Source of the DNA: Dietzia sp. JS16-p6b
GTDB lineage: Bacteria; Actinomycetota; Actinomycetes; Mycobacteriales; Mycobacteriaceae
Reading direction: 5' to 3'
NCBI RefSeq assembly: GCF_003052165.1
Contig: NZ_CP024869.1
Location: forward strand, 248,001 to 312,000
DNA: 64,000 bases
Part shown: positions 4,659-32,471 of the stretch, in pieces
Layout: each line of letters begins with the position of its first letter
Numbering within the stretch: the first letter of the stretch is position 1
The notes under the pieces: generated by a model
Database searches by the model: none
Told to the model about the DNA's origin: nothing
Seen by the model: only the letters and a program-made list of their open reading frames with translations
Made by a program: the position numbers and the translations under genes

Positions 4659-5315
4659 TCAGCCCAGCGAGCCGGCGAACAGCCCGGCGTCGACGCCGAG
4701 GTCCGCACCGGCCTCGGCGCCGGAGCTCAGCCCGGCGAGCTCGCCGGTGAGCGAGCCGGTGTCCGTGTCGGTGCCCTCGTCGGCGGAGCCGGTGAGCGAG
4801 CCGGTGTCCGTGTCGGTGCCCTCGTCGGCGGAGCCGGTGAGCGAGCCGGTGTCCGTGTCGGTGCCCTCGTCGGCGGAGCCGGTGAGCGAGCCGGTGTCCG
4901 TGTCGGTGCCCTCGTCAGCGGAGCCGGTCAGCGAACCGGTGTCCAGCGAGCCCGTGCCCGCATCGGCGGCGCCGCCGTCGATCAGGGCGCTGCCGGTGTT
5001 GGGCGAGACGCCGAGGCTGCCGAGCTCGACCGAGCCCGGGTTGGAAGCCTCGGCATCGAGGTTCAGGTTGAAGGCGAGGCTTCCCAGGTCCACGGCGAGG
5101 TCGGTGCCGAGTCCGAGGTCGCCGAGGCTGCCGTCCTCACCCGCGATCTCCGTGAGGCTGCCGGTGTCGCCCGCGAGTCCCTCGAGGCTCCCGGACGGTG
5201 CCTCCTGCGCGGCCGCGAGGCCGGGGAACGCGATGGCGGCACCCAGTCCGAACGCGCCGACGGCGGCGATCTTGGCGGTGGTGCGGTTGGTGGTCTTCCG
5301 GTGGGTGTTCGTCAT
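4659..5315 (-). CDS. Exported Gly-Ser-Leu/Thr repeat protein (GSL family, member A)
   Basis: A 218-residue protein with a signal peptide: a basic start (MTNTHRKTTNRTTAK), a hydrophobic core, and a likely cut after FPGLAAAQ near residue 29. The mature part is acidic and low-complexity, rich in Gly, Ser, Asp and Thr, with scattered GSL triplets. Residues 131-190 are four exact-looking copies of a 15-residue unit containing GSLTGSADEGTD. There is no catalytic motif, membrane anchor or sorting signal, so it should be secreted or loosely wall-bound. The start was placed at an ATG with GGGAG ten bases upstream. Function is unrecognised. It resembles the proteins at 10414 and 31752 in composition and signal peptide. 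Confidence 0.75.
   Translation of the reverse strand: MTNTHRKTTNRTTAKIAAVGAFGLGAAIAFPGLAAAQEAPSGSLEGLAGDTGSLTEIAGEDGSLGDLGLGTDLAVDLGSLAFNLNLDAEASNPGSVELGSLGVSPNTGSALIDGGAADAGTGSLDTGSLTGSADEGTDTDTGSLTGSADEGTDTDTGSLTGSADEGTDTDTGSLTGSADEGTDTDTGSLTGELAGLSSGAEAGADLGVDAGLFAGSLG
4746..4925. repeat. Four tandem 45-bp repeats inside the GSL gene
   Basis: The unit begins at 4746, 4791, 4836 and 4881. The copies are nearly identical, the last differing by one base. A degenerate fifth copy starts at 4926. The 45-bp period keeps the frame and encodes three pentapeptide-sized blocks, so copy number can change by slippage without breaking the gene. Confidence 0.9.
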
Positions 5316-5540
5316 GTAATGAACAGCTCCCATCTTCATTGACCCCGATGGCTCTCATCGCGGACACCTCGACCAGAGCGAGATGCGTCGGTGACCCTAC
5401 AAGCGGACTCCGGCCCTGTCAGGGGGTCAAATGCTGAGTGTTCCTTGAGGTAACACTTCGGTCATCGGTCGCGAGGGGTCGTGGTCACCCGTATCCCCGA
5501 CTCGGCGGCGGGCCGCGTCGCACCTGCCTAGGCTGGCGTT

Positions 5541-7043
5541 ATGGCCACGCCTGCGCATTCGGACCCGACATCGGGAGCGCCGCCTGGCGTCGTGGAGACG
5601 CACAGTGCTCTCATCGTGCTCTATGGTGACCAGGCTCACAAAGTGCGCAAACCGATCGACCTCGGTTTCCTCGACAACACCACGGTCCGGGCCCGCGCCG
5701 AGCAGAGTCGGCGGGAGGTCGAGCTCAACAGTCGCATGGCGCCGGACGTCTACGACGGCGTGCTCGAGGTCCGCGATCCCGAGGGCGAGGTGATCGACCA
5801 CGTGGTCAGGATGCGTCGTCTCCCCGCCGACCGGAGCCTGGAGTCGCTGGTGCGGTCACGGGTCTCGGGCATCGGACGGGCCGGCGATCCGGATCTCGTG
5901 GTGGGCGTGCGGGAGGTGGGCCGGCAACTCGCCCGTCTGCACGCCGCGAGCCCCCGCTCCGGGCAGATCGAGGCCATGGGCACGGCGGACGCCGTGGCCG
6001 GTCTGTGGGGGGAGTCGATCGCACACCTGCGCCGTCTGAGCGTGGGCGAGGACGCACCGGAGATCGTCGACGACCTCGAGTGGCTCGCGGGGGAGTACCT
6101 GCGCGGACGGCGCCGGCTCCTACGGGCACGCGTGGACGCAGGCCGGGTGGTCGACGGCCACGGGGACCTGCTCGCGGCCGACATCTACCTCGAGGACGAC
6201 GGGCCGCGTGTGATCGACTGTCTCGAGTTCGACGACCGGCTCAGGTTCGGGGACGCCATGCTCGACGCCGGGTTCCTGGCCATGGACCTCGACAGGGCGG
6301 GGGCACGGGACCTCGCGGAGGCCTTCCTCCGGGCGTACCGGGACTTCTCCGGTGATGACGCCCCGCCCTCCCTCGTCCATCACTACATCGGGTACCGCGC
6401 GGTCGTGCGGTCCAAGGTCACCGCCATCCGCGCCGACCAGACCGGGAGCGGAGGTGCGCATGCTCGGCACGCCCTGGAACTGGCGGATCAGGGAGTAGAC
6501 GCCCTCTTGCGCGGCCGCGTCAGGTTGGTCCTCGTGGGAGGGGTGTCCGGGTCGGGCAAGTCCACGCTGGCCGTGCCACTGGCGGCGGCGTTGAAGGCCG
6601 AGGTCCTGCGGTCGGATGACCTGCGCGCCGCCGGCCCGGCCGACCGGCGGTACTCGGCGGCGGCGGTCGCCGCAGTCTACGGCCGGATGCTCGATCGGGC
6701 CGGGCAGCTGCTCGCGTTGGGGCGCAGCGTCGTCCTCGACGCGACCTGGCTGAACCCTCGTCGCCGCGCGGAGGCGGAGACCGTCGCCGCCGATGCACGC
6801 GCCGAGCTCGTGGAGGTCGCCTGCACGGCTCCGCACGAGGAACTGGTCCGGCGGATCGAGCAGCGGCGACGCATCGGGTCCGATCCGTCGGAGGCGACCG
6901 TGTCGGTGCTCGCGCGACAACTCGCGGACCGGGCGCCCTGGCCCGACGCGATCGAGGTGGACACCACCGACCTCGATGTCCGCTCCCTCGAGGCCGTACG
7001 GGAGTGGGCGGCGCGGAACCTGGGCCCCCTGCCCTGGGCCTAG
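5541..7043 (+). CDS. Aminoglycoside phosphotransferase-like / P-loop kinase fusion protein
   Basis: A 500-residue two-domain protein. The first 310 residues resemble the phosphotransferase (APH) kinase fold, with HGDLLAADIYLEDDGPRVID as the catalytic and metal loop region. The C-terminal 180 residues are an AAA/zeta-toxin-like P-loop kinase domain with Walker A GGVSGSGKST near residue 332. This matches the COG2187/COG0645 fusion proteins found widely in bacteria, whose substrate is unknown. There is no reason to assume antibiotic resistance. TAGGCT at 5529-5534 lies 6 nt before the ATG, indicating a leaderless start. Confidence 0.85.
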   Translation: MATPAHSDPTSGAPPGVVETHSALIVLYGDQAHKVRKPIDLGFLDNTTVRARAEQSRREVELNSRMAPDVYDGVLEVRDPEGEVIDHVVRMRRLPADRSLESLVRSRVSGIGRAGDPDLVVGVREVGRQLARLHAASPRSGQIEAMGTADAVAGLWGESIAHLRRLSVGEDAPEIVDDLEWLAGEYLRGRRRLLRARVDAGRVVDGHGDLLAADIYLEDDGPRVIDCLEFDDRLRFGDAMLDAGFLAMDLDRAGARDLAEAFLRAYRDFSGDDAPPSLVHHYIGYRAVVRSKVTAIRADQTGSGGAHARHALELADQGVDALLRGRVRLVLVGGVSGSGKSTLAVPLAAALKAEVLRSDDLRAAGPADRRYSAAAVAAVYGRMLDRAGQLLALGRSVVLDATWLNPRRRAEAETVAADARAELVEVACTAPHEELVRRIEQRRRIGSDPSEATVSVLARQLADRAPWPDAIEVDTTDLDVRSLEAVREWAARNLGPLPWA

Positions 7044-7071
7044 CGGGCTGGTCGCACCCGCCGGCGGCGGG

Positions 7072-8235
7072 TCACCCCGGCCCGGACGCCCCCGGCGGTC
7101 GGGGGATGGAGCCCACGAACTGCATCGATCGGTACGGCCAACCGGCGGGGCCCGCGGCCGAGTCGTGGGTGTTCCACTGGCTCACCACGAGGTGCCACTC
7201 CTCCGGAGTGGACCCGGGGACGGGGCAACCGCAGTAGAGCTGGGCGACCCGCGCCGGGCCGGCGGTCGGATCAGATCCGTCGGATTCGTCGCCCCAGGCA
7301 CACCCGTGCAGGAGCGTCGTGTGGGCGGTCACCGAGCGGTCCAGGAGGTCCACTCCGATGTGCGCGAAAGTGAGGCAGTCGATCCGGTAGTGCTCCGCGT
7401 CGAAGTAGGTCAGGGTCCAGAAGTCCTCGCACCGCCGCAGGTACATCTCGCCGATACGGCCCGGCAGCACGATGGTGGTGGGGTTGCCCCAGGCCCATGC
7501 CCCGTCTCGGAAACCCCACGACTGCCATCCGTTGACGCCGGGGTCGGCCAGGTCCTCCTCGCGGACCCGCATCAGGATGACCCCCTTGTCCCGCTGGAAA
7601 CCGGTCGACAGCACGTAGACGAATCCGTCCCCGCCCGACTCCCAGGTCCACAGCTGACGGTGCCCGCCCTCGAGCAGGGGGGAGAACGTGACGCCGGTCG
7701 GCTCCCAGGTGTCGCCGTCGTCGACGGAGCGGTGGATCTCGGTCCGCGTGACCGTCCCGAGACCCTCGTTGACCATCACCTGGAGATACATGGTGTCACC
7801 GAGGGTGAGGACATCACCGGGCAGGACAGTGGAGCAGCCGCGCCCGTGGACGTAGTCGACGAGCTGACCCGCGTAGTCCGGTGGGCCGGGGCCGGCCGCA
7901 CCCGTCCACACCAGGCCACCGGACGCATCGATGTCGTCCGCGAACAGGCCGACGGGGGATCTCCAGTCCGGATTCCCCGGCCCGGGCCGCTCGTCGGTGG
8001 TGGGAGTGCACTGCGCGATCCCGGGGTGGGGCCGACCCACGTGGGGGGCACCCACCCCCGCCCCCGCGAAGGTGTCGCCGAACACGGCGAGCAGGCGCCC
8101 GGAGGGTGTCCGGGCCGTGATCCCCAGATCGGTGCCCTCCATCCCGAACGCCGTGGTGATACCCGGCCCGGTGAGGTCGCGGACCTTTCGGGTGCGGGTC
8201 TGCGGGGTGCGGGTCGGCGGGCGTGAGTCCGTCAT
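7072..8235 (-). CDS. DUF4185 domain-containing protein
   Basis: A 387-residue protein resembling the DUF4185 family, probably a beta-propeller related to glycoside-binding folds. It has the family's opening pattern, LGITARTPSGRLLAVFGDTF near residue 48, and repeated aromatic strands such as WESGGDGFVYVLSTGF. No signal peptide is visible with this start, although mycobacterial relatives are often exported. A role in polysaccharide or envelope processing is only inference. A TAGCGT hexamer 7 nt before the ATG suggests a leaderless mRNA divergent from the next gene. Confidence 0.75.
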   Translation of the reverse strand: MTDSRPPTRTPQTRTRKVRDLTGPGITTAFGMEGTDLGITARTPSGRLLAVFGDTFAGAGVGAPHVGRPHPGIAQCTPTTDERPGPGNPDWRSPVGLFADDIDASGGLVWTGAAGPGPPDYAGQLVDYVHGRGCSTVLPGDVLTLGDTMYLQVMVNEGLGTVTRTEIHRSVDDGDTWEPTGVTFSPLLEGGHRQLWTWESGGDGFVYVLSTGFQRDKGVILMRVREEDLADPGVNGWQSWGFRDGAWAWGNPTTIVLPGRIGEMYLRRCEDFWTLTYFDAEHYRIDCLTFAHIGVDLLDRSVTAHTTLLHGCAWGDESDGSDPTAGPARVAQLYCGCPVPGSTPEEWHLVVSQWNTHDSAAGPAGWPYRSMQFVGSIPRPPGASGPG

Positions 8236-8344
8236 GGCACCGACGCTACCGCCACCCGCGACGACCGGAGAGCCGATCGTGGACGCATCACAATTCGGTC
8301 AATGCGCGGGCGAACCCGGAACGCGGACGCGTATGGTCGTGCGC

Positions 8345-8860
8345 GTGACACACCCCTTCGCACGAGCGGGGCGCGAGATCGTCCCCGGCCACTGGTTCGG
8401 CCCCGTGGCCGTCGTGGCAGTCGGGTGTGCGCTCGCGTGGATCATCGTGGGTTTCGGTCACGGAGCCGCACCGGCGCTGCTGGTGTTGGCCCTCACCACC
8501 GTGGTGGCACTGTGGAACTCTCCGCTCAGGATGACCGGTCACGAGCCCCTTCAGTCGGTGCGCAGCGCCTGCACCGAGCACGCCGTGGTGGTCCTGTGGC
8601 GCCCCGGGTGTCCGTACTCCTCCGCACTGCGGCGGCGCGCCGCGCGGGAGGGCCTCGAGGTGCACTGGGTGAACATCTGGCGGGACGAGGACGCCTACGA
8701 GCTCTGCCGCAGCATCAACATGGGCTCGGAGGAGACGCCGACCGCGATGCTGCTCGACCCGGCGCTCTCCGGCCCCGTCGTCATCCCGGCCTCCGTGCCG
8801 GGCATCCGAGAGGCCACCGCGGCCAGGCTCCCCCGGGGCCGGGCGCGTCGCGCGATCTAG
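8345..8860 (+). CDS. Membrane-anchored monothiol glutaredoxin-like protein
   Basis: A 171-residue protein with two hydrophobic helices near the N-terminus (about residues 18-35 and 40-56) and a C-terminal thioredoxin-fold segment. The fold contains WRPGCPYSSALR near residue 87, a CPYS active site with a single resolving-type Cys, plus EETPTAMLLDP as the cis-Pro region. It is likely a thiol-disulfide protein attached to the membrane; its partner is unknown. A GTG start was chosen because TATGGT at 8332-8337 lies 7 nt upstream. An in-frame ATG at 8333 is possible but overlaps that hexamer. Confidence 0.7.
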   Translation: MTHPFARAGREIVPGHWFGPVAVVAVGCALAWIIVGFGHGAAPALLVLALTTVVALWNSPLRMTGHEPLQSVRSACTEHAVVVLWRPGCPYSSALRRRAAREGLEVHWVNIWRDEDAYELCRSINMGSEETPTAMLLDPALSGPVVIPASVPGIREATAARLPRGRARRAI

Positions 8861-8902
8861 TCGACGGCCCCCGTTCCCGGCCGACGGCGCCCTGGTTCGG
8901 TC

Positions 8903-10234
8903 TCACCCGAGGGGCCTCGTCCCCTTCACGTCCCCGCACTCGGCCCCGAGCGCCATGTCGGCGATCAGACCCGACGCGCGCAACTGCTCCAGCCGCGGCG
9001 CGACCCGATCACGCAGGGCCCACGGGTCGATGGTGTTGACGTGGATCCCGGTCGCCCCCTCGAACCCGGCCGGGGTGGAGATCCGCCACTTGAGCACGAT
9101 CCGCCACGGCATCGGGGCGGCGACGCCGGGAGGTCGGGTGTGCCACTCCTCGTTTGTCGGCACCAGAGGGCCCGTGGCGGCGTGGCAGGCGTGCAGCAGA
9201 TCGGAGACCCCGCGGAGCTCCTCCGGCGAGTGTTCCCACGGATCGCTCGCCGCCGACCGCGAGTAGACGACGAGGGCGGGATACCGGTGCCCCACCCCGA
9301 CCACCGCCACGGCGTGCTCGTTGGCCGCCACCACCAGTCCCTCCGAGACCGCGAGACCGATCCCGAGGGTGTCGTAGAGGTCCGGTTCGCTCTCCAGGGC
9401 GGCCACCTCGCGAACGGTCTTCGCCGGGATCTCGTCGATCGCCACGAGCTGCTTGTGCAGATGGGCGAACGACGCGCCCGCCGGCTGCAGCCAGTTCTGG
9501 AACACCGACACGTATCGGGCGTGGGGGTTGTCGCGGTACAGGTTCCGCATGGCGCGGACGGTGAACGCGATGAAGTGCTGGTGTTCGGCCGGGTCGAGGG
9601 ATCCCGAGGAGGCATGCCCCCCGGTGGTGGCGGCGCCCTCGACGAGGTGGCGGCGGGCCACCACGACATCGTGGCAGCCGCCGAAGAAGCTCTCCGAGCG
9701 CGCGGCCAGTTCCGCGGTATCCATGGCATCGACGATGGACGGATCCCCCTGTGCTGCCGCGATCCGGGTCCGGAGCAGCGAACGGACGTGTTCGACACCG
9801 GCCTCGGTCTCGAGGTAGGCGGACTGATGCGCGGAGGCTCCGGCCGGGATCCGATAGCCGTGGACCGCTTTCCAGTATTCGAGCGAGACGATCTCGAAGA
9901 GGTTCCCGAAGAGCCTGAACTCGGGCGTCGTCAGGTCGAGTTGGTCCGGGGCGACCCGGTCGAGGGTCCTCCATGTGCTGCCGTCGCGTACCAGGCGCGA
10001 CTTCTCCGGGGTGGTCTCGCGAAGTCGGGACACGCAGAACGCGCAGTGAGCCTCCGGGGCGACCGGGTCCACCGGGCGGACCTCGCCGGGGTGATGGTCG
10101 ACGGGGCGGTTACCGCGGCCCGGGACCGTCCACACCTCGGTGCCGGTGAAGGGGTTCGTCTGCTTGACGGTCCCGTCCGCCATCCGGCGCAGCGGTCGAA
10201 TCCGGGGCGACGGGGTGTCGGGCGGGGTGGTCAC
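8903..10234 (-). CDS. DUF4921-family protein with GalT/HIT-like fold
   Basis: A 443-residue protein resembling DUF4921 proteins, a branch of the HIT/galactose-1-phosphate uridylyltransferase superfamily. Supporting motifs are the paired-Cys segment HCAFCVSR near residue 63 and QNWLQPAGASFAHLHKQLVA near residue 255. The latter matches the GalT pattern of N-G-x2-A-G-x-S-x2-H-x-H. One expected His of the HxH pair is retained in HLHKQ. It probably acts on a nucleotide-linked or phosphorylated substrate, but the reaction is unknown. A GTG start is supported by TAGGCT 6 nt upstream (leaderless). Confidence 0.75.
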   Translation of the reverse strand: MTTPPDTPSPRIRPLRRMADGTVKQTNPFTGTEVWTVPGRGNRPVDHHPGEVRPVDPVAPEAHCAFCVSRLRETTPEKSRLVRDGSTWRTLDRVAPDQLDLTTPEFRLFGNLFEIVSLEYWKAVHGYRIPAGASAHQSAYLETEAGVEHVRSLLRTRIAAAQGDPSIVDAMDTAELAARSESFFGGCHDVVVARRHLVEGAATTGGHASSGSLDPAEHQHFIAFTVRAMRNLYRDNPHARYVSVFQNWLQPAGASFAHLHKQLVAIDEIPAKTVREVAALESEPDLYDTLGIGLAVSEGLVVAANEHAVAVVGVGHRYPALVVYSRSAASDPWEHSPEELRGVSDLLHACHAATGPLVPTNEEWHTRPPGVAAPMPWRIVLKWRISTPAGFEGATGIHVNTIDPWALRDRVAPRLEQLRASGLIADMALGAECGDVKGTRPLG

Positions 10235-10413
10235 GCGCCGAGCCTAGGCGGTGCCGGGTGCCTGGCCGACGACTGCGAGGAGAATGCCGCGCCCGCACCG
10301 GTGGAACTGTGATGAAGGTAACACTATCCTGAGTTTCCACGATGTGGGTATGAGGCAGGGGGATTGGTGCTAGCCATCCCGCGTGGAGACACCGACCGAA
10401 CAGAGGACCGAAG

Positions 10414-12045
10414 ATGTCATCGAAACGTGCACTACACATTCGTGCGGCGGCCGTTGCCGGCGCGGCCCTTCTCGCGGCATCCGGGTCCCCGGCGGTCGCA
10501 GGTGCTCAGGAGGGGTCGCTCGACCTCGGACTGGGACTGAATCTCGAGTTGTTGCTCGGGTCGGCGGGATCCGGTGAAGAAGGGTCCCTCGAGGGTTCCC
10601 TCGAGCCCGGCTCCCTCGACCCCGGCTCGCTGGGGCAGGGTTCGTTGGAAGGCTCCCTTGAGCCGGGCTCCCTCGATCCGGCCTCGCTCGCGCCGCTGTC
10701 CGCGGGGTCGGATGAGGGTTCGCTCGAGGGCTCGCTGGAGCCTGGTTCGCTGGAGCCTGGCTCACTGGAGCCAGGATCGCTGGAACCCGGTTCGTTGGAG
10801 CCGCTGTCCGCGGGTTCGGATGAGGGATCTCTCGAGCCGGGATCCGTCCAGGCCGGTTCGCTCGTGGCGGTGACCGTGCTCCTCGCGCTCGGTTCGGAGG
10901 GGGGCGAGGGGTCGCTCGATCCGGCCTCGCTCGCGCCGCTGTCCGCGGGGTCGGATGAGGGTTCGCTCGAGGGCTCGCTGGAGCCTGGTTCGCTGGAGCC
11001 TGGCTCACTGGAGCCAGGATCGCTGGAACCCGGTTCGTTGGAGCCGCTGTCCGCGGGTTCGGATGAGGGATCTCTCGAGCCGGGATCCGTCCAGGCCGGT
11101 TCGCTCGTGGCGGTGACCGTGCTCCTCGCGCTCGGTTCGGAGGGGGGCGAGGGGTCGCTCGATCCGGCCTCGCTCGCGCCGCTGTCCGCGGGGTCGGATG
11201 AGGGTTCGCTCGAGGGCTCGCTGGAGCCCGGTTCGCTGGAGCCTGGCTCACTGGAGCCAGGATCGCTGGAACCCGGTTCGTTGGAGCCGCTGTCCGCGGG
11301 TTCGGATGAGGGATCTCTCGAGCCGGGATCCGTCCAGGCCGGTTCGCTCGTGGCGGTGACCGTGCTCCTCGCGCTCGGTTCGGAGGGGGGCGAGGGGTCG
11401 CTCGATCCGGCCTCGCTCGCGCCGCTGTCCGCGGGGTCCGATGAGGGTTCGCTCGAGGGCTCGCTGGAGCCGGGGTCGCTCGATCCCGCCTCACTGGCGC
11501 CGCTGTCGGTGGGCTCCGAGGCCGGGTCGCTGGAGGGCTCCCTCGAGGGGTCGTTGGAACCCGGGTCGCTGGAGCCCGGCTCGCTCGACGAAGGCTCGGT
11601 GGAGGGTTCTCTCCCGACGGGTTCATTGGAACCGGGTTCCGTCGAGGGGTCGCTCGCCCCGGTCGGTTCCCTGACCGCATCCCTGGCCCCGTTGGGTTCG
11701 ACGGTCGGTTCCGCGGTCGGGTCACTGCCGATCCTGCTGCCGGTGGTCCTCGTCGGTGGTTCGATCGCCGCCGCCCCGATGATCGGGCAGTCGGTCATGG
11801 ACCTCGGGCTGGTCCTGCCACCACTGCCCGGGATGCCCATGGCGCCGCCCGCCCCGGTCGCCGTTCCCGAGGCGCCGCCGGCCCCCGGGCCGACAACCCC
11901 CAACGGTCGCGGGGGAGAACCGGGTGCCGCGGGGGGCGTCGCGGTGGCCGCGAACGCGGCGATCGTCACCACGGGATCGCTCGGAGACTACGAGGTGGTG
12001 CTGCCGGACGGTGTCACCCTGCCTCCGCTGCCCTTCATCCGGTGA
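10414..12045 (+). CDS. Large exported Gly-Ser-Leu pentapeptide-like repeat protein (GSL family, member B)
   Basis: A 543-residue protein. Residues 1-33 are a signal peptide ending near AVAGAQ. Most of the rest is built from five-residue GSLEP-like blocks. Residues 87-329 are three 81-residue units, each containing GSLEPGSLEPGSLEP and one hydrophobic stretch (LVAVTVLLALG). A partial fourth unit follows. Near residues 430-475 come a hydrophobic segment and a Pro-rich LVLPPLPGMPMAPP region, then PGPTTPNGRG and a short tail ending LPPLPFIR. GAGGA precedes the ATG by about 8 bases. No known domain was recognised. The central Leu with a small residue two before it recalls pentapeptide-repeat helices, but Pro in each block makes that uncertain. 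The repeats could also be mis-assembled. Confidence 0.8.
   Translation: MSSKRALHIRAAAVAGAALLAASGSPAVAGAQEGSLDLGLGLNLELLLGSAGSGEEGSLEGSLEPGSLDPGSLGQGSLEGSLEPGSLDPASLAPLSAGSDEGSLEGSLEPGSLEPGSLEPGSLEPGSLEPLSAGSDEGSLEPGSVQAGSLVAVTVLLALGSEGGEGSLDPASLAPLSAGSDEGSLEGSLEPGSLEPGSLEPGSLEPGSLEPLSAGSDEGSLEPGSVQAGSLVAVTVLLALGSEGGEGSLDPASLAPLSAGSDEGSLEGSLEPGSLEPGSLEPGSLEPGSLEPLSAGSDEGSLEPGSVQAGSLVAVTVLLALGSEGGEGSLDPASLAPLSAGSDEGSLEGSLEPGSLDPASLAPLSVGSEAGSLEGSLEGSLEPGSLEPGSLDEGSVEGSLPTGSLEPGSVEGSLAPVGSLTASLAPLGSTVGSAVGSLPILLPVVLVGGSIAAAPMIGQSVMDLGLVLPPLPGMPMAPPAPVAVPEAPPAPGPTTPNGRGGEPGAAGGVAVAANAAIVTTGSLGDYEVVLPDGVTLPPLPFIR
10672..11400. repeat. Three tandem 243-bp repeats (plus a partial fourth) in the GSL gene
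   Basis: Units start at 10672, 10915 and 11158. A partial fourth begins at 11401 and runs to about 11475. The first two copies read as identical, and the third differs at one silent position (CCT to CCC in a Pro codon). The period is 81 codons and keeps the frame. Such near-identity implies recent duplication or ongoing gene conversion. Confidence 0.92.
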
Positions 12046-12077
12046 CCTGACACGCGATCGGCGAACCGAGGCGCGTT

Positions 12078-12114
12078 CCGCCCCGCTCCGAGTGGACCAC
12101 TCGGAGCGGGGCGG
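12078..12114 (+). terminator. Hairpin terminator after the large GSL gene
   Basis: An 18-bp perfect inverted repeat pairs 12078-12095 with 12097-12114, so the apex is very tight. It begins 32 bases after the stop of the repeat gene and before the gltB promoter region. It separates the repeat gene from gltBD. Confidence 0.8.
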
Positions 12115-12211
12115 TCGCCGTTTCGGCGCCGGTTGCACGTGCGACCTGAGAGAAATCTCACAGGGTGGAATCCGTGTCCCACGTCAGTCGGCGTTGATTG
12201 ACGAAACCGAA

Positions 12212-12242
12212 TTGTGCGGCTAACCCCTTTTCCCCATATTAT
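12212..12242 (+). promoter_or_regulatory. Possible gltBD promoter
   Basis: An AT-rich patch in otherwise GC-rich DNA contains TATTAT at 12237-12242. A weak upstream element, TTGTGC, sits 19 bases before it. This would give a leader of about 80 nt before gltB. The -10 is convincing; the -35 is poor. Confidence 0.35.
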
Positions 12243-12329
12243 TTGCGGGCCAGAGCACCACGGTGATCTGAGTGCGGGTGCTCCAGCCACCACGGAGTCC
12301 GCCCGTCGACAAACGAAGGCGAGCAGATT

Positions 12330-19862: not shown

Positions 19863-20246
19863 ATGCGCACCACCATGCTCGCCGCGGCCTCGTCCGCCCT
19901 GATGGCGGCCGCCCTGGTCGTCGGCGCCGGATCGGCGGCGGCGGCGCCCGATGAACCGACGGGCCCGTTCTGCGTGTGGATCCAGACGCAGAACGGACTG
20001 CGCTGCATGTCGGTCGATCCGGCGACGATCGACGCGCTGGGGAGCCTGGGCTACGGTTCGTTCGGTACCGGCTCGCTGATGGATCTGCTGTCGACGCTCA
20101 TCAACACCGGCTCGGTCGTCCTGTCCGTGGACGTGCCCAACTCGACCGGCTCGTACGCGCCCGGGTCCCTGGGGAGCTACGGTCCGGAGGCCTCGATCGG
20201 CGAGCTCGCCGTGGGCTCCATCGGGTCCCTCGCGGGGGCGTCCTAG
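19863..20246 (+). CDS. Small exported Gly/Ser-rich protein (GSL family, member C)
   Basis: A 127-residue protein with a signal peptide (residues 1-28, cut after AGSAAAA). The mature chain starts with a short Cys-containing segment, FCVWIQTQNGLRCMSVD, whose two Cys could pair outside the cell. It continues with Gly/Ser/Leu repeats such as LGSLGYGSFGTGSL and APGSLGSYGPEAS. There is no anchor. GGAGG precedes the ATG by 8 bases. It shares composition and GSL triplets with the larger repeat proteins nearby. It is convergent with rraA, whose stop lies 17 bases beyond. Function unknown. Confidence 0.65.
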   Translation: MRTTMLAAASSALMAAALVVGAGSAAAAPDEPTGPFCVWIQTQNGLRCMSVDPATIDALGSLGYGSFGTGSLMDLLSTLINTGSVVLSVDVPNSTGSYAPGSLGSYGPEASIGELAVGSIGSLAGAS

Positions 20247-20262
20247 TCGAGGTCGGTGTGGG

Positions 20263-23714: not shown

Positions 23715-24773
23715 ATGCCCCAGAACAGTGTTTCCGGACTCCGGGCGAGGCGCATCGGCGCGGTCGTCGCCGCAACCGCACTGGCGGCCGTCGGTATCCC
23801 GGCCGCGGCCCACGGGCAGGAGACCTCGGGCTCCGATTCCTCGTTGCCCACCCAGACCGGCAACAGCAGCGTCGACGGCCTCATCGGACTGATCCCCGAC
23901 GAGATCGTCATCGGGAACCCCGGCGTCGGGGCGGGATCCGAGGGGCTACGGGATCTCGGGAGCGGCGTCGTGCCGGACACCGCACTGTCCGTGGGTCAGG
24001 TCCTGGGCTCCGTGGCGCCCCTCGAGGCCCTGGGATCGGCGGGCGGGTCCGCGGCCGCCTCCGTGGCGTCCTCGGGAAGTCTGCCCGGTTCGGTGTACGT
24101 GAACCCGACCGGATCGCTCGGGTCGGGCACCATCGGACTCGGATCGCTTTCCATACCCGAGTACCTCTTCCCGGTACTCAGCGTGCAGCTGGCCGGCGGG
24201 TACTTCGCCGCCATGGCCGAGCGCCAGGAGGCCGGAGAGCTCTATCCGCATGAGTTGTCGTTCTGGCATGACGTGGTGGTGGGGTCGGCCGAGGCCGGCG
24301 GCGCCCTGGAGGACGCCGCTGCCGGGGCCGGGACAGAGCTGCCCGGCGGACTGGCCGGGAGCATCGACGCCGTCCAGCGCTCCGCGCTGCAGGATCCCGT
24401 CGAGGAGAACGAGCGGCGACGAGCCATCGCCGAGGCCGCCGCGGAGGCGGAGGCGGCTGACACTGCGGAGGCCACGGATGAGGCGGGGGCCGGCGACGGC
24501 ACCGTGACCGAGGGGCGCGCCGACGGCCGGGAACCCGCAGCCGGTATGCCCCCGTTGACCGACGCGGCAGAGGTGGACGAGTCCGCGATGCACCACCACG
24601 CGGTAGGGGTCGCCCGGGTTCCGGGGGAGCAGGCCCCGGGCACCGGACCCCAGGCCGCGGGCCCTGCGACCCTGGCCGCCACCGGCGCCGAGACGACGGC
24701 GATCGCCGGCCTGGCGACGGTGAGCCTGCTCGTGGGCGCCCTGTTGCTGGCGGGGTCGAGGCGCCGCGGCTGA
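23715..24773 (+). CDS. Sortase-type surface protein with LAATG signal (GSL family, member D)
   Basis: A 352-residue exported protein. The signal peptide spans residues 1-36 and probably ends near AAAHGQ. The first half is rich in Gly, Ser and Val with GSL triplets (GSLPGSVYVNPTGSLGSGT). The middle is a helical Ala/Glu-rich stretch near residues 228-265. The C-terminus is a sorting signal: LAATG, then a hydrophobic helix, then SRRRG. LAXTG tails are recognised by actinobacterial class E sortases, so the protein is probably linked to peptidoglycan; no sortase gene lies in this window. The middle region YPHELSFWHDVVVG could be a small folded domain of unknown family. Confidence 0.75.
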   Translation: MPQNSVSGLRARRIGAVVAATALAAVGIPAAAHGQETSGSDSSLPTQTGNSSVDGLIGLIPDEIVIGNPGVGAGSEGLRDLGSGVVPDTALSVGQVLGSVAPLEALGSAGGSAAASVASSGSLPGSVYVNPTGSLGSGTIGLGSLSIPEYLFPVLSVQLAGGYFAAMAERQEAGELYPHELSFWHDVVVGSAEAGGALEDAAAGAGTELPGGLAGSIDAVQRSALQDPVEENERRRAIAEAAAEAEAADTAEATDEAGAGDGTVTEGRADGREPAAGMPPLTDAAEVDESAMHHHAVGVARVPGEQAPGTGPQAAGPATLAATGAETTAIAGLATVSLLVGALLLAGSRRRG

Positions 24774-24844
24774 GCCGCGAGATCGGGCCGGCGGCTGAGC
24801 CGCGAGATCGGGCCGGCGGCTGAGCCGCGAGATCGGGCCGGCGG
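24770..24844. repeat. Three tandem 25-bp palindrome-bearing repeats after the surface-protein gene
   Basis: The 25-bp unit starts at 24770, 24795 and 24820, and the first bases of a fourth follow at 24845. Each junction contains GCGGCTGAGCCGC, a 6-bp inverted repeat around one base. The first copy includes the stop codon of the surface-protein gene. It could act as a terminator or a repeat-mediated mRNA stabiliser for that gene. Confidence 0.85.
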
Positions 24845-24873
24845 CTGAGCCTGTGGGGGTTCTCAGCCGCTGA

Positions 24874-25764: not shown

Positions 25765-25879
25765 GCGCCCAGGCTACGCACGCGCCTCCCCGCGCCGGCC
25801 GGCTTGCGCGCCCGGAATGGACCGTTCGTGGCGCATGGTCGGTCGCATTCCGGGCGAACAGGCCGCATAACCGGGCGGG

Positions 25880-26674: not shown

Positions 26675-26776
26675 TCCTCCAGCATCTCTCACATCGGCCA
26701 CCCTGGGCCCTGACGCGACGTCAGGGTCAAGGGCCGGTCGGTACCGCGGGGGCTTACTCGTCGGTAATATCGGGGT

Positions 26777-28342
26777 ATGAGCCGACCCACATCACGTGTC
26801 TACGACCGACTGCGCGACCTTGTCGCGATCCCCGAGTTCCGCGCCGATCCGTCGAGTCGCGAGTCGACGGTGATCGAGGAGGTCTTCACCGGCACGCCGC
26901 TCGCCGAGATCCCGGCGGGGACCGCCGACGACGTGATGGCCGCGGTCGGACGGGCCCGGGCGGCCCAGGTGGCGTGGGCGGAGCGCGAGCCCGCGGATCG
27001 CGTCGCCGTTCTCAAGCGGTTCGCCTCCCTGGTCATGAGCAACCGCGACCAGCTCATGGACATCGTCCAGGCGGAGACCGGCAAGAGCCGGGCCTCGGCC
27101 CAGGAGGAGGTGCTGGACTGCCTCATCACCGCACGTCACTACGCCCGGACGGCCCCGGCGTTGCTCGCCCCCAAGCGGGTCCAGGGCATGCTCCCGGGCC
27201 TGACCAAGGCCGTGGTCCGGCGCCACCCCAAGGGTGTCGTGGGCGTGATCGCGCCGTGGAACTACCCGCTCAACCTCGCCGCCACCGATGCGCTGGCGGC
27301 ACTGGCCGCGGGTAACGCCGTGGTGATCAAGCCCGCCTCCATCACCCCGTTCTGTGCCCTCGCCGCGGCGGACATGTTGTACCGCGCAGGCCTGCCGCGC
27401 GACCTGTTCCAGGTGGTCCCCGGGTCGGGCCGCACCGTGGGCGGGGCGATCGTGGAGAACGTGGACTACCTCATGTTCACCGGCTCCACGGCCACTGGCC
27501 GGACGCTCGGTCGCCAGTGCGGCGAGCGTCTGATCGGCTTCTCCGCCGAACTCGGTGGCAAGAACGCCATGATCGTCGCGGAGGGCGCCGACCTCGACGA
27601 GGTCGCCGAGGTGGCCACCCGAGCCTTCTTCTCCAACTCCGGCCAGCTCTGCATCTCCGTGGAGAGGGTGTACGTGGAGAGGTCCGTCGCGCCCCAGCTC
27701 GTCGAGAAGCTCACCGCGCGGGTCCAGTCGATGAGCGTGGGCCCCGGGTACGACTTCGAGGCGGAGATGGGCAGCCTGATCTCCCGCGACCAGCTGGAGA
27801 CCGTGACCGCCCACGTCGACGACGCCGTGGCCAAGGGTGCCCGCGTCCTGGCCGGTGGCCGCCCCCGTCCGGACCTGGGTCCGCTCTTCTACGAACCGAC
27901 TCTCCTGGCGGACGTGCCCGAGGACGCCACCTGCTTCGGTGAGGAGACGTTCGGGCCGGTCGTGTCGATCTACCCGGTCGACTCGGTGGACGAGGCGGTG
28001 GCCAAGGCCAACGACACCGAGTACGGGCTCAACTCCTCGGTCTTCGCCGCGTCCGACGCGGAGGGCGAGGCGATCGCCGCCCGTCTGCGCACGGGCACCG
28101 TCAACGTCGGAGAGGGCTACGTGGCCGGATGGGGCTCGGTCGCGGGCCCGATGGGGGGCATGGGCGCCTCAGGGGTCGGTCGTCGACACGGCGACGAGGG
28201 CCTGCTCAAGTACACCGAGGCCCAGACCATCGCGACCCAGCGCGTCATGCACCTCGGTGGGCCGTCGTTCCTCCCCCGCAAGCAGTGGCACGCCGTCCTC
28301 GCCCCGGCGACCAACGCGATGCGTTTCCTGCCCGGGCGCTAG
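26777..28342 (+). CDS. gabD2: Succinate-semialdehyde dehydrogenase
   Basis: A 521-residue aldehyde dehydrogenase closest in layout to mycobacterial GabD2, which oxidises succinate semialdehyde to succinate with NADP. Visible motifs are VIAPWNYPLN near residue 157, FTGSTATGR near residue 235, the general base in ELGGKNAM near residue 259 and the catalytic Cys in NSGQLCISVERV near residue 293. TAATAT at 26765-26770 lies 6 nt before the ATG, giving a leaderless mRNA divergent from the TipA-like regulator. Confidence 0.88.
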   Translation: MSRPTSRVYDRLRDLVAIPEFRADPSSRESTVIEEVFTGTPLAEIPAGTADDVMAAVGRARAAQVAWAEREPADRVAVLKRFASLVMSNRDQLMDIVQAETGKSRASAQEEVLDCLITARHYARTAPALLAPKRVQGMLPGLTKAVVRRHPKGVVGVIAPWNYPLNLAATDALAALAAGNAVVIKPASITPFCALAAADMLYRAGLPRDLFQVVPGSGRTVGGAIVENVDYLMFTGSTATGRTLGRQCGERLIGFSAELGGKNAMIVAEGADLDEVAEVATRAFFSNSGQLCISVERVYVERSVAPQLVEKLTARVQSMSVGPGYDFEAEMGSLISRDQLETVTAHVDDAVAKGARVLAGGRPRPDLGPLFYEPTLLADVPEDATCFGEETFGPVVSIYPVDSVDEAVAKANDTEYGLNSSVFAASDAEGEAIAARLRTGTVNVGEGYVAGWGSVAGPMGGMGASGVGRRHGDEGLLKYTEAQTIATQRVMHLGGPSFLPRKQWHAVLAPATNAMRFLPGR

Positions 28343-28366
28343 GCGTCAGTGCAGCTGGTCCGCCCG

Positions 28367-28945
28367 TCACCGTCCGCGGCGCAGCAGCAGGACGGCCCCG
28401 CCGATCAGGAGGACCGCCAGTCCGGCGACGACCCACAGTGCCGGGTTGACGCCGGTCGTGGCCTCACCCGAGGTCTCGTCGGCGATCTGGTTCCCGGCGG
28501 GGTCGGCTTGGTCGTCGACCTCGCCCGCCGGGTCGCCGGCGGCACCCGCCGCGGATTGCACGGTGAACACGGACGAGCCGGTCACCACGTGCCCGTCCGC
28601 GGAGGTCACCCGGTAGCCGACGGTGTACGCGCCGTCCGGCAGGTCATCGACCTCCGCGGTGACGGTCTCGCCCTCCACGGAGGGCTCTCCCACGACCAGA
28701 TTGGTCCGGTCGTCGCCGGTGGTGACGGCGACCGAGGCGAACATCTGGTTGATCTCCTCGTTGAACGTCAGGGCCACCTGATCCGGAGAGGCGTCGAGCG
28801 TCGCCCCGTCCTCGGGCTCCACGGAGACGAGGACCGAGTGCGCCGCGGCGACCGGGACCAGGACGGTGGCGGGAACCGCCGCGCCACCGGCGATCACGGC
28901 GGCGGCGAGCACGCCTGAGGTCCACCGCGTCCGGACCCCGCTCAC
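28367..28945 (-). CDS. CopC-domain exported copper-binding-like protein
   Basis: A 192-residue protein with a signal peptide ending near VPVAAA, so the mature chain would start with His (HSVLVSVEPEDGATL), as in CopC proteins that bind copper through an N-terminal His. A CopC/YcnJ-type Ig-like fold follows, with VALTFNEEINQMF and VGYRVTSADGHVVTGSSVF. A C-terminal membrane helix (about residues 168-187) and LLRRGR end the protein. It may take part in copper homeostasis at the cell surface. The GTG start overlaps the stop of the upstream gene by 4 bases, so the two genes are coupled. Confidence 0.82.
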   Translation of the reverse strand: MSGVRTRWTSGVLAAAVIAGGAAVPATVLVPVAAAHSVLVSVEPEDGATLDASPDQVALTFNEEINQMFASVAVTTGDDRTNLVVGEPSVEGETVTAEVDDLPDGAYTVGYRVTSADGHVVTGSSVFTVQSAAGAAGDPAGEVDDQADPAGNQIADETSGEATTGVNPALWVVAGLAVLLIGGAVLLLRRGR

Positions 28946-29784
28946 GGTGTGACGCCGAGGCGGGCGAGGACGTCCTTGTTGACCCGGTCGAGTTCGCCGG
29001 AGATGGCGGAGTGCACCTCGCGTCGCTGGGCGGTCGGGGTGGTCTCGGCGGTCTCGACGGCCGTCCTCAGATCCTTGAGGCGGGACCGGGTGGAGGCGAG
29101 GAAGTCCTCGACCTGCCGATCGCCGCGGCGGTCCACCTCGAGCTGGTCGAGGGTCTGTTCCAGGCGGACGATGCGGGCACCGAGAGCGGCTCCCGGTCCG
29201 GTGGCGTCGATACCCGCCGCCCTGAGGTCCACGGCGCCGGCGGCGGACCTGTCGGTGGAACCCTGCGCGTTGGAGACGAGCTTGTAGACCATCGGGAGCA
29301 GCACCGGGGTGGCGACCTTGGCCAGGCTCAGCCACCGCTGCACGTCCTCCTTGCCGAGTTTGGTGCCCTCGAGCTTCTTCAACTCCATCTCCGCGAGTTG
29401 GTACTCGTGCTTCCGCCCCGCGGCCTCGATCTTCTCGGCCGCCTTCCGGTCCTTGGCCAGGAACTTGGCCTCCCGCTTGAGCGTGGCCCGTTCCTGCTTG
29501 GCGAGGGTCTTCTCCGCCTTGCGGTCCCTCCGGGACGCCTTCCGGGCCAGCGCGTCCTGCCGCTTGGCGCGCTTGGCCTCCCGCTTGGCCTTCCGGTCCG
29601 CGTTCCTGCCCGCCAGCTTGGCGCGCTTCTTCGCCTCGGCGAGCTCGACCCGATGCGCCTCCTTGGCCTTGTGTCGGGTCTCCTTGGCGGCGAGCTTGGC
29701 CTCGGTCATGGCGGTGGCCTTGAGCGCGGCGGCGTGGGCGCGGAGTTCGGCGCGCTTGTCGCGGTAGGTCGTCAGCTTGCCCAT
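28942..29784 (-). CDS. Lys/Ala-rich coiled-coil protein (DUF6474-like)
   Basis: A 280-residue protein. Residues 1-140 are extremely rich in Lys, Ala, Glu and Arg and should form a long charged helix. The C-terminal half has a conserved-looking segment (WLSLAKVATPVLLPMVYKLV) and another helix. It resembles DUF6474 proteins of mycolate actinobacteria, whose function is unknown. It could bind nucleic acid or the membrane surface. The start was placed at MGKLTTYRDK, with AGAAGG about ten bases upstream; an upstream ATG at 29814 is possible. It is the first gene of a two-gene operon with the CopC-like gene. Confidence 0.72.
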   Translation of the reverse strand: MGKLTTYRDKRAELRAHAAALKATAMTEAKLAAKETRHKAKEAHRVELAEAKKRAKLAGRNADRKAKREAKRAKRQDALARKASRRDRKAEKTLAKQERATLKREAKFLAKDRKAAEKIEAAGRKHEYQLAEMELKKLEGTKLGKEDVQRWLSLAKVATPVLLPMVYKLVSNAQGSTDRSAAGAVDLRAAGIDATGPGAALGARIVRLEQTLDQLEVDRRGDRQVEDFLASTRSRLKDLRTAVETAETTPTAQRREVHSAISGELDRVNKDVLARLGVTP

Positions 29785-29895
29785 GGGCGTCGATCCTTCT
29801 CTCGTCGCGAACATCAGGTCCCCAGCCTAGGCGAACGGGCGACCGGTGAGCACCGGACCGGTGTCCGTGCGCGGAGTGGGCCATGATGGACGTCG

Positions 29896-31575
29896 ATGGA
29901 TGGTGCGCGGAACGGATCGAGCGGGGGCCCCGGCGGTGCGGTGGCGGGACCTGCCTCGGGGTCCAGGTGTCTGCACCGCGTGGCTCGTGAGCGGGACGCC
30001 GGTCCCGCCTGGTGGCGGACGGCCCCGCTCGACGAGGGTGTGCGCCTGCGGGCGATGGCGGCCGCAGATCGCCGCGCCGGACTGCGCGAGCGGGCGCTGC
30101 GGAGCGCACGTCCCGACGCGCTGGTGGTGGACGTGGTGGGGGACCACTGGACGGATCTGCCGGGAGACGTCCCGGGTGACGACGACGAGGCGGTCACCCG
30201 CCAGGCTCTGGCGGACGGGGCGGCGCTGGTGTGGGGTGCCGCCCTGCCCGCCGACCGCGGCACGGGGAGGGCCGGCCTGCGCTGCACGCTCGCGGCGGTG
30301 CCGGACGGAGGTTACGTCCCCGTTCTGGTGGTGAACCACAAGGTCGTGGACCCGCGGCGGAGCCGACGGTCGTCGGGGGCGGTGGTGACCCGCCTGCTCG
30401 ACTGGGACCCGGCTCCTGATCCGACGCTCCGACTCCGCCGCCACCCGGCGGACCTCGACCGCCTCGTCCACGCGTGGCGCCTCCTCGAGGCGCTGGGGTA
30501 CGCGGCATCGCACCCGGTCGGGGCCGTGTTGGGACTGGGCTCCGCGCGCGCGGTGGTCCACGAGCTCGACCCGGTCCTGGCCGCGGCCGACCGCAACCAC
30601 GCAACGCGGCTGGCGGTCCTCCGGGGTGAACTCGACACGGTGCCGAGCCGGGTCGGGGAGTGCCGCACCTGCCCGTGGTGGGAGGGCTGGGACGACCGGG
30701 GCACGTCCGTGACGGGGTGCCGTGACCGGTTGGTTCTCGCCGACGACGTGAGCCTGGTGGTGGGCGGAGGGCAGGTCGGAGCGGTCCGCGCGGCCGGCGT
30801 CCACACGGTGGCGGAGCTCGCCGAGGCCGGGTCGGAGCGTCCGCCGGACTGGAACGGCGAACCGTTCTCCGATGCGGTCCTGCGGGCCCGTGCGCACCGG
30901 GACGGCGAGGTCGTCGTCCCCAAGGTGGCCCGACCGACCATCCCGCGCGCGGACATCGAGGTGGACGTGGATCTCGAGAGCCACCTGGACGACGGCGCCT
31001 ACCTGTGGGGGACCCTGCTCACCCTGCGGGACGGGCGCCGCCTCGAGGCCGAGGGATACCGTCCTTTCGCGACCTGGGCCCGGCTGCCGGACCCGGACGA
31101 GGGGCGCTCGTTCGCGGAATTCTGGCGGTGGCTCACCGGCATCCGGGACAGGGCCGAGGGGCAGGGGCGCACGTTCCGCGCCTACTGCTACTCCAAGTCC
31201 GCCGAGAACGGCTGGATGCTCTCGACCGCCACCCGGTTCGGGCCGGAGGGCACGCTGGCCGAGGTCAGGGGCGTGCCCTCGGTGACCGAGGTACGCGGGT
31301 TTCTCTCCTCGTCCCAGTGGGTCGACGTCCACGAGGCGGTGGCCACGCAGTTCGTCTCCACCTCCGGTCTCGGACTCAAGGTGGTGGCGCCGGTCGCCGG
31401 GTTCCGTTGGCGCGACCCGGACGCCGGGGGAGAGGCGTCGATCGGGTGGTATCGGGACGCGCAGGCCTCGCGGGGGGTCGAGCGGGACTCGGGCAGGGAG
31501 CGCATCCTGGCCTACAACGAGGACGACGTCCGGGCGACGAGGGCTGTGCGGGAGTGGATTTCGCAGCAATTCTAA
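29896..31575 (+). CDS. TM0106-type RecB-like nuclease with RNase H-like domain
   Basis: A 559-residue protein resembling the TM0106 family. The N-terminal half is a divergent RecB-like nuclease domain with a late Cys-rich element (ECRTCPWWEGW near residue 255). The C-terminal half is an RNase H-like domain from about residue 350, with acidic residues in DIEVDVDLESH and a closing ILAYNEDDVRATRAVREW, the typical last Asp motif of that fold. It probably acts on DNA or RNA ends in repair; the role is unproven. The start is the ATG giving MDGARNG. Confidence 0.85.
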   Translation: MDGARNGSSGGPGGAVAGPASGSRCLHRVARERDAGPAWWRTAPLDEGVRLRAMAAADRRAGLRERALRSARPDALVVDVVGDHWTDLPGDVPGDDDEAVTRQALADGAALVWGAALPADRGTGRAGLRCTLAAVPDGGYVPVLVVNHKVVDPRRSRRSSGAVVTRLLDWDPAPDPTLRLRRHPADLDRLVHAWRLLEALGYAASHPVGAVLGLGSARAVVHELDPVLAAADRNHATRLAVLRGELDTVPSRVGECRTCPWWEGWDDRGTSVTGCRDRLVLADDVSLVVGGGQVGAVRAAGVHTVAELAEAGSERPPDWNGEPFSDAVLRARAHRDGEVVVPKVARPTIPRADIEVDVDLESHLDDGAYLWGTLLTLRDGRRLEAEGYRPFATWARLPDPDEGRSFAEFWRWLTGIRDRAEGQGRTFRAYCYSKSAENGWMLSTATRFGPEGTLAEVRGVPSVTEVRGFLSSSQWVDVHEAVATQFVSTSGLGLKVVAPVAGFRWRDPDAGGEASIGWYRDAQASRGVERDSGRERILAYNEDDVRATRAVREWISQQF

Positions 31576-31600
31576 TCGAGTTCTCACTGAGAGAGAGCTG

Positions 31601-31628
31601 TTGCTTTGCTTAATGTCGGGGATAGGGT
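31601..31628 (+). promoter_or_regulatory. Likely promoter of a GSL-family gene
   Basis: TTGCTT at 31601-31606 and TAGGGT at 31623-31628 are separated by 16 bases. This would start an mRNA with a leader of about 115 nt before the exported protein gene at 31752. Confidence 0.4.
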
Positions 31629-31751
31629 GAGAAAGAAGGGACGAAGTTAACGACGCTTCTCGGCGTCGCCGACCGTTCCCGTAAGCCCGCCCTCACGGGG
31701 TGTCCCGTCGCGAACCCACGCGGATGCCGCGCCATACAAGGAGACGAACCC

Positions 31752-32471
31752 ATGACGTTCTCGATCCGTAGGGCCGCTGCCGTCGCAGCCGCCTCCGCAC
31801 TCGCCCTTTCCGCGGCCACAGGTGTCGCCGCCGCCCAGGAGGGCACCGGGAGTCTGTCCGCCGACAGCCTCGGGGCCGACAGCCTGGGCGCCCTCGGCAG
31901 CGAGGGCATCACCGATTCGGTGGGCGAGGGGTCGCTGCCGCAGGACCTCGGCTCCCTCATCCTCGAGGCCAACGCCACCGGGGAGGGTTCTATCGACACC
32001 TCGGGCTCGGCGATCTTCGGTGAGCCGTCCACCGGTTCGCTGGCACCCCTCGCCGGCTCGGTCATCGACGCGGCCGGGTCCATCACCCTCTCGAACCCGG
32101 CCCCCGGGACCGGTTCCGTCGACGTGAGTGGATCCCTCCTGGACGAGTCGCTGCTGGGTTCGGTCGAGCCGGCGGCCGCGCTGGCCGTCGGCTCCCTCGG
32201 GCTCGGCGACGGTGCCACCCTGGTGCTCGGATCCGACGCCGGCTCCCTGCCGGGCGCGGGCTCGCTCGGTCCGCTGGTGCTCGTGGGCGGGTCGGCGGCC
32301 CTGGGCGCGGGCATCTACTTCGCCCCGCAGATCCACCAGGCGCTGACCGACGCCGGGATCGCGCTCCCGCCGCTGCCCCCGCTGCCCTGGGCCCCGGCGG
32401 CGCCCGAGCAGGCCGCCCCGGCACCCGCTCCCCAGGCTCCGGGCCCGGATACCCCGAACGGTCGCGGCTGA
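31752..32471 (+). CDS. Exported Gly-Ser-Leu protein with C-terminal TPNGRG module (GSL family, member E)
   Basis: A 239-residue protein. The signal peptide (residues 1-29) ends near VAAAQ, and the mature chain starts EGTGSLSADSLGADSLG. The body has irregular GSL triplets. Near residues 170-200 is a hydrophobic stretch (LVLVGGSAALGAGIYF), then a Pro-rich ALPPLPPLPW region. The protein ends in GPDTPNGRG. That order of hydrophobic segment, LPPLP and TPNGRG also occurs in the large repeat protein at 10414, so the two share a C-terminal module. AAGGAGA precedes the ATG by 8 bases. No enzyme motif; function unknown. Confidence 0.75.
   Translation: MTFSIRRAAAVAAASALALSAATGVAAAQEGTGSLSADSLGADSLGALGSEGITDSVGEGSLPQDLGSLILEANATGEGSIDTSGSAIFGEPSTGSLAPLAGSVIDAAGSITLSNPAPGTGSVDVSGSLLDESLLGSVEPAAALAVGSLGLGDGATLVLGSDAGSLPGAGSLGPLVLVGGSAALGAGIYFAPQIHQALTDAGIALPPLPPLPWAPAAPEQAAPAPAPQAPGPDTPNGRG

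Follow-up and report, generated by a model that had tools for sequence, protein, structure and literature searches.

Gly-Ser-Leu-rich exported proteins of Dietzia as possible mycolate acceptors

How the proteins of the mycomembrane (the outer membrane of mycobacteria and related bacteria) are selected is an open question. Protein O-mycoloylation is known, yet the available part of one account gives no strict sequence signal for it (PMC11066868). This question is raised by a 64-kb window, the whole stretch of DNA analysed here, which comprises bases 248001-312000 of a closed 3.72-Mb Dietzia genome. Five of its genes (A to E), all within 28 kb of the chromosome, encode signal-peptide proteins rich in the triplet Gly-Ser-Leu (GSL). 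Tentatively, with a probability of a little over one in three, we take A-E to be exported envelope proteins whose Gly-Ser (GS) arms accept mycolate, which would fix them in the mycomembrane. Dietzia repeats one short segment dozens of times, also on some of its mycoloyltransferases, and offers a natural test substrate and possibly a sorting signal.

The five exported GSL-rich open reading frames (ORFs) named in an earlier sequence-only reading of this DNA exist and read as claimed, and GSL is above the shuffled level in each. Counts were made on the chain from residue 36 on and compared with composition-matched shuffles. GSL, GS and SG counts (shuffle means for the first two in brackets) are 12 (0.66), 18 (4.8) and 2 for A; 48 (2.67), 69 (15.2) and 1 for B; 4 (0.30), 9 (2.4) and 0 for C; 3 (0.43), 14 (4.6) and 4 for D; and 7 (0.60), 16 (4.3) and 2 for E. 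D has the weakest GSL excess of the five (shuffle p 0.009). Altogether, 126 of the 176 serines in the five chains are preceded by glycine (A 18/23, B 69/84, C 9/15, D 14/29, E 16/25). The start of gene A, previously placed at 5339, was corrected to 5315, where a conserved MTNTHRKTT begins; this start is present in all eight other Dietzia genomes from which the region was fetched, and it also served to pick the orthologues of A.

Besides A, C and E, no gene with more than two GSL was found in the 64 kb by a simple gene-picking script based on GC content at third codon positions (GC3), which left B and D unpicked. Across the same genome, twenty 20-kb stretches at even intervals were scanned with a home-made criterion for GS-rich exported ORFs (whole chain, z at least 3), which catches four of the five window genes and misses D. 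Only A and B were returned, from one stretch overlapping the window, and the other 19 stretches (380 kb) contained none. The grouping of GS-rich genes in this region is real.

Signal sequences are present in A-E and are kept in the orthologues, as judged by eye and by hydropathy, which gives the five proteins the inner-membrane export expected of O-mycoloylated mycomembrane proteins. A strict home-made export rule caught two of the five and a looser rule four. The signal-peptide ends had been described as alike; this is true for A (AAAQEA), B (AGAQEG) and E (AAAQEG) and more loosely for D (AHGQET), but C ends differently (AAAAPDE). A surface or envelope location, as proposed earlier, is judged likely.

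Profile comparison with hhalign covered five of the ten possible pairs (B-E, A-C, C-D, A-D and C-E). B and E were paired with 98.9% probability (E-value 3e-17), through a C-terminal module alone, whereas the other four pairs reached 1-13% and show no detectable homology. The module consists of a hydrophobic segment, G-[IVL]-x-LPPLP, a Pro/Ala tail and PGPxxPNGRG (the consensus also reads PAPGPxxPNGRG). The proposal that A-E form one scattered homologous family was rejected, since only B and E are related among the pairs compared. What A-E have in common is a type of segment and not one family, which suggests that they have a partner or a physical function in common.

Pfam and NCBIfam searches with A-E gave no match above the cut-off and a few weak ones below it, including a LAXTG model for D. 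The statement that no described family matches them is thus borne out for these two databases; the same databases agree with the absence of an enzyme motif, although the LAxTG-type sorting signal of D had been overlooked. Among solved structures, searched with D and E and not with A, B or C, D had no match and E one weak match (E-value 0.026). Across 397 genomes of the order, the E profile matched in this genome only and the C profile found two other matches, both confined to the signal-peptide region. The D profile gave 20 matches outside Dietzia, in 19 of 396 other genomes of the order; 17 lie on the C-terminal sorting-signal region (two of them were read and carry LASTG and LPVTG signals), two cover the region of the signal peptide and the last a short stretch. 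A search with B in 301 genomes of the family returned 17 matches from Dietzia and three others, one of which, from the genus g91, is a GSL protein. Homologues of the B, C, D and E chains were not found outside Dietzia, where A was not searched. No papers describing such GSL proteins were found in the literature searched, which is no proof of their absence. A-E are real, conserved in much of Dietzia and, as far as these searches reach, apparently undescribed.

The region was fetched from eight other Dietzia genomes, chosen for having B and E matches, and tblastn showed A-E in the same order in all eight; some copies are incomplete, being located at the end of a stretch or having a frame broken in the assembly. 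Among 23 Dietzia genomes, 14 have a match to E at 1e-12 or better and 15 have one to B; several of the others are incomplete assemblies. In a more distant Dietzia (G022), a 20-kb stretch round E contains C and E with no D match between them; A and B are expected outside this stretch. A relative of E in Dietzia natronolimnaea S-XJ-1 is 84% identical, and the core of C is nearly invariant among orthologues. Clear tandem repeats are found in A and B, with a repeat number that varies between orthologues, and a partly duplicated stretch is seen by eye in E orthologues.

In the diverged rows of the alignments, GS serines are kept in 483 of 548 cells compared with 116 of 203 for other serines (Fisher p 5e-19), a value to be read with the caveats that cells are not independent, that repeat alignment favours GS-to-GS pairing and that the E alignment includes two paralogue rows. 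The window gene was the reference for this count, the two nearest relatives were dropped and gap cells (147 GS, 64 other) were set aside. The kept fractions for GS and other serines are 0.82 and 0.42 in E, 0.89 and 0.73 in C, 0.89 and 0.55 in D, and 0.94 and 0.63 in B. The conserved GS serines are encoded by differing codons in 18-63% of cells, depending on the family; therefore it is the protein that is maintained and not the DNA. One alternative is that low-complexity sequence expanded neutrally in a high-GC genome and has no selected function. This would fit the tandem repeats of changing number in A and B, but it has to face serines that are kept despite synonymous codon change, an order of A-E that is kept in every genome fetched and the nearly invariant core of C. 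It is already disfavoured and is the most improbable of the readings weighed here.

The residue after GS stays hydrophobic in 58-89% of cells by family. This bears on the idea that A-E are secreted wall proteins with O-linked sugars, from mannosylation or a similar modification, on their GS serines. Exported segments rich in Ser and Thr are typically targets of glycosylation, and A is rich in Thr; a conserved hydrophobic residue after the serine is unusual for sugar sites, however, and we consider this explanation quite unlikely.

The link to mycolate comes from the mycoloyltransferases of the same genome. PF00756 matches in eight places, five of which read as exported mycoloyltransferases; of the rest, two are weak matches and one is a membrane-type esterase. 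A GS-rich segment outside the catalytic domain is present in three of the five enzymes, with 5, 6 and 6 GS per 60 residues. At least four GS in 60 residues were found in none of 123 exported-like genes and in two of 211 other genes of the 380-kb sample; for three of five enzymes against 0/123, p is 3e-5 with a post hoc choice of the set. One GS-rich mycoloyltransferase starts with AQSLDPGSLVPSVAPGSLLG and ends with ...GVDPGSAGSAGSLGSTGSAGSLGG. In the enzyme 3.9 kb past the window end, GSSASLGSAGSA is kept in six of seven Dietzia genomes (G000, G004, G012, G013, G016, G019), and the copy in G020 has a short AGSAGSS instead. Another type of mycoloyltransferase in seven Dietzia genomes has two to three GS before the catalytic domain, as counted by eye (L024, L026, L028, L037, L284-L286).

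The place 3.9 kb past the window end (G000:C1:315906-318131) holds two adjacent mycoloyltransferase genes, the second with a long C-terminal repeat region. For Dietzia sp. CN-3, the available part of one report numbers gltB/gltD and fadD32/pks13 about 55 genes apart (PMC12472514).

With moderate confidence, we place A-E among mycomembrane-directed exported proteins. A mycomembrane and shed vesicles with trehalose mono- and dimycolate are reported for Dietzia sp. DQ12-45-1b (PMC8027190). For Corynebacterium glutamicum, the available part of one study lists about 30 candidate O-mycoloylated proteins, mycoloyltransferases among them; the sites are mainly serines in flexible segments with a slight enrichment of Gly, Ala and Ser around them, about half of the candidates have at least two sites, and there is no strict consensus (PMC11066868). 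A-E are like the substrates known there (PorB, PorC, PorA, PorH, Cmt1/MytC) in being exported envelope proteins with serines amid small residues in flexible stretches; several sites per protein are frequent in these substrates, which also include mycoloyltransferases. They differ in that no GSL motif is reported in the part of the C. glutamicum work available and in that the Dietzia side is known from sequence alone.

In the proposed mechanism, A-E would leave the cell through Sec, and their GS-hydrophobic segments would serve as unfolded acceptor arms. A mycoloyltransferase would then acylate the arm serines with mycolic acid from trehalose monomycolate, and the mycolate esters would fix the proteins in the mycomembrane. 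As the serines are numerous and close together, one protein could take up several acyl chains. Serines in flexible Gly/Ala/Ser-rich stretches are indicated by the GS enrichment and, for D and E, by low scores in the predicted local distance difference test (pLDDT). In the AlphaFold2 model of E (11 sequences), the mean pLDDT is 35.7 and 218 of 239 residues are below 50. The model of D (seven sequences) has a mean of 38.5 with residues 15-172 below 50, helices of moderate confidence at about 173-254 and a helix of low confidence at 317-350.

The low predicted order of D and E would equally suit unmodified, disordered surface or matrix proteins of the elastin or silk type, in which PGSLE pentads and GS turns make a flexible coat without lipid. 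Elastin-like polypeptides are (VPGXG)n, and B, alone of the five, resembles them in having Pro-Gly every five residues in its PGSLE arrays; B differs in being acidic, rich in Ser and Leu and bacterial, and there is no homology. The pentad spacing of GS in B, the repeat number that varies between orthologues and the separate transcription units suggested by conserved strong hairpins (see below) are in line with such a coat. It leaves unexplained why similar segments occur on three of the five mycoloyltransferases and why B, D and E retain the GS serine so strongly. We regard it as doubtful, with an appreciable chance of being correct.

Several observations weigh against mycolate-accepting arms. 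The acylation of the Dietzia GS serines is a prediction from sequence. GSL is not a diagnostic O-mycoloylation site, because reported O-mycoloylation has no strict consensus, and the Leu is left unexplained. Low pLDDT obtained from alignments of 7 and 11 rows is weak support for disorder of D and E. The GS serines of family A are hardly better kept than its other serines (0.80 vs 0.75). Two of the five mycoloyltransferases (L087, L090) have no such segment, with 2 and 1 GS per 60 residues, and the whole-chain criterion is passed by two of the five (z 4.7 and 5.6), the third reaching 2.8. A survey covered 114 mycoloyltransferase ORFs, Dietzia included, among the PF00756 matches listed in 46 genomes; they were the loci returned with that list and 40 further stretches chosen by hand, and the catalytic domain was placed by motif in 106. 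Among the matches listed, a GS-rich N-terminal extension occurs in 4 of 13 Dietzia rows, some of them cut, and in 0 of 93 rows (88 distinct sequences) from other genera, an absence that says less than the count suggests because extensions there average 16 residues and mostly offer no place for a GS segment. The C-terminal 60 residues are GS-rich in one of the 114 ORFs, which is from this genome. GS segments on mycoloyltransferases would thus be a Dietzia habit.

GSL segments outside Dietzia also count on this side, as in the genus g91 the GSL tails are carried by small secreted domains without an assigned location. The g91 domain (PGTYTTAG...CTW...GC.W; L123-L150) has matches in 11 of 14 genomes, occurs singly or in tandem with GSL tails or linkers, and frequently has a terminal tail, for example GSVDAGSLGGSLDFGSLSTGSLGS or GSLEVGSAAGSLGGSLATGSIVNGSLANE; the mature chain of a further g91 ORF starts with SLGSLGTGSLGSTDTGSLGSS. 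Four g91 proteins scanned against Pfam matched no named family. Such segments can be appended to other proteins, because GSL tails occur on these domain proteins. Single 100-kb samples from three further genera of the same family (g2, g90, g7) and from three genomes of other families contained no GSL-type proteins, the samples being too small to establish absence; one match in g2 and one in g91 from the same sampling are of other kinds.

Among A-E, D might be bound in a second way. It consists of a GS-rich segment, a predicted helical domain, an acidic and Ala-rich linker and a C-terminal LAATG followed by a hydrophobic helix and RRRG, the arrangement of a LAxTG sorting signal with helix and basic tail. 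L-A-x-T-G is kept in seven of seven rows, with LAVTG in some orthologues and RRRG or a similar tail. The small-protein LAXTG model matches weakly (E-value 0.003, below the cut-off) in two of four D sequences scanned. Class E sortases use LAxTG signals, and a Pfam search found one sortase in the genome, which is of class E (NF033747, E-value 2e-73, over the curated cut-off). D thus resembles the LAxTG substrates of these sortases, from which it differs in a GS-rich body without a relative found outside Dietzia. The sortase would link D to the wall through LAATG, so that D would have a lipid anchor at one side and a sortase-made bond at the other, as a possible strap between mycomembrane and wall. 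The proposed likeness, for D only, is to the Braun lipoprotein (Lpp), which is anchored in the outer membrane by lipid at one end and bound covalently to the wall at the other; the two differ in sequence, lipid, enzyme and wall chemistry, and this is an analogy only. Protein links between mycomembrane and wall are reported for PorH and ProtX of C. glutamicum in the available part of a preprint, which draws the parallel with Lpp (PMC12632848).

We infer that the proteins are acylated and lie in the membrane and that D is linked to the wall. A wider claim goes further: short Gly-Ser-hydrophobic arms on unrelated exported proteins, including mycoloyltransferases, would be multi-site mycolate acceptors that sort to the mycomembrane, and D would be a covalent wall-mycomembrane strap, an Lpp counterpart with a different enzyme and lipid. 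This wider claim is rather unlikely. If D is acylated at one end and sortase-linked at the other, mycomembrane and wall would be joined by an identifiable protein.

The C-terminal hydrophobic segment of B and E has a maximal 19-residue hydropathy of 2.08 and 1.61, respectively. A similar end, GGVTLPPLP, is found in F, a 389-aa protein encoded near 3.178 Mb of the same genome that has GSL, DSL, ESL and ASL triplets and was picked up by its similarity to B across repeat sequence. With mycolate-accepting arms, this segment of B, E and F would lie in or against the mycomembrane. The hydrophobic module common to B and E also invites the view that the two are pore-forming mycomembrane proteins whose GSL segments line or anchor the pore. 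C. glutamicum offers a precedent, as a pore is attributed to the small alpha-helical proteins PorH and PorA and surface assembly of PorH needs O-mycoloylation, according to the available part of PMC12632848. The known channel of Dietzia is, however, said to belong to the MspA superfamily (PMC9233653, available in part). MspA-family porins (PF09203) are, like the proposed location of A-E, mycomembrane proteins of the same order and are reported in Dietzia in that source, but PF09203 was not matched by A-E, nor was any other Pfam family, porins included, above the cut-off. We consider a pore highly unlikely.

Hairpins lie downstream of several of the genes (table below). Those after A, B and E are strong and conserved. 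In the A hairpin, two of 17 consensus pairs show compensatory change on both sides, and the rows for E include five copies from one genome and two of a tandem paralogue. Mononucleotide shuffles served as the control and were scanned less finely than the real sequence, which somewhat flatters the margins. Downstream of C there is just an 8-nt inverted pair. Results for C and D vary: the shuffles are exceeded in G009 and G019 among the seven C rows and in part of the D rows, and not clearly in the rest. The hairpins and the palindromes at D reported by the sequence-only reading are thus present, but a terminator scan that requires a T-run lists none of them, as they lack it. Single-gene transcription, likewise proposed there, fits the conserved hairpins after A, B and E, which suggest separate transcription units for these three, and less clearly the genes C and D.

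Coordinates of the genes and hairpins. Positions are those of the window, except for the shorter E-like gene, which is given by locus.
Feature	Position	Strand	Remark
Gene A, 218-aa exported protein, 12 GSL, tandem TGSLTGSADEGTDTD repeats	4659..5315	-	start seen in 8/8 fetched Dietzia genomes
Gene B, 543-aa exported protein, GSLEP pentad arrays, C-terminal module common with E	10414..12045	+	
Gene C, 127-aa exported protein, conserved core GYGS[FL]GT[GA]SL...TGSYAPGSLGSYGPEAS	19863..20246	+	
Gene D, 352-aa exported protein	23715..24773	+	
Gene E, 239-aa exported protein, C-terminal module as in B	31752..32471	+	
Hairpin 3' of A, inverted repeat arms 22 nt (95%)	4578..4624	-	strong in 9/9 rows
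Hairpin 3' of B, arms 18 nt (100%), perfect	12078..12114	+	strong in 8/8 rows
Palindromic repeats over stop codon of D	24765..24851	.	hairpin strength varies among orthologues
Hairpin 3' of E, arms 17 nt (88%)	32509..32544	+	strong in 13/14 rows
Shorter E-like gene	L076:13241-13789; L078:12208-12756		

Some relatives have further copies of E or E-like genes. A shorter E-like gene (183 aa, ending LPPLPQF) is located just upstream of E in G010 and G004, and similar ORFs are present in G014 and G015. In G009 (C1 366-381 kb, C3, C4; L080, L081, L085, L086), E lies within a tandemly repeated unit of about 6.0-6.3 kb with about 14 copies or remnants, the units being >99.3% identical and some frames broken; this may be a real amplification or an assembly artefact. 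Between G000 (C1, about 3176.5-3179.7 kb) and G012 (C47), the F locus shows 99.3% identity across 3280 bp, while the window regions of these two genomes are only 88-97% alike, and this sequence difference suggests a recent exchange of the F locus. Near E, the window encodes a neutral/alkaline ceramidase (33431-35401, minus strand) beside a short-chain dehydrogenase and a superoxide dismutase.

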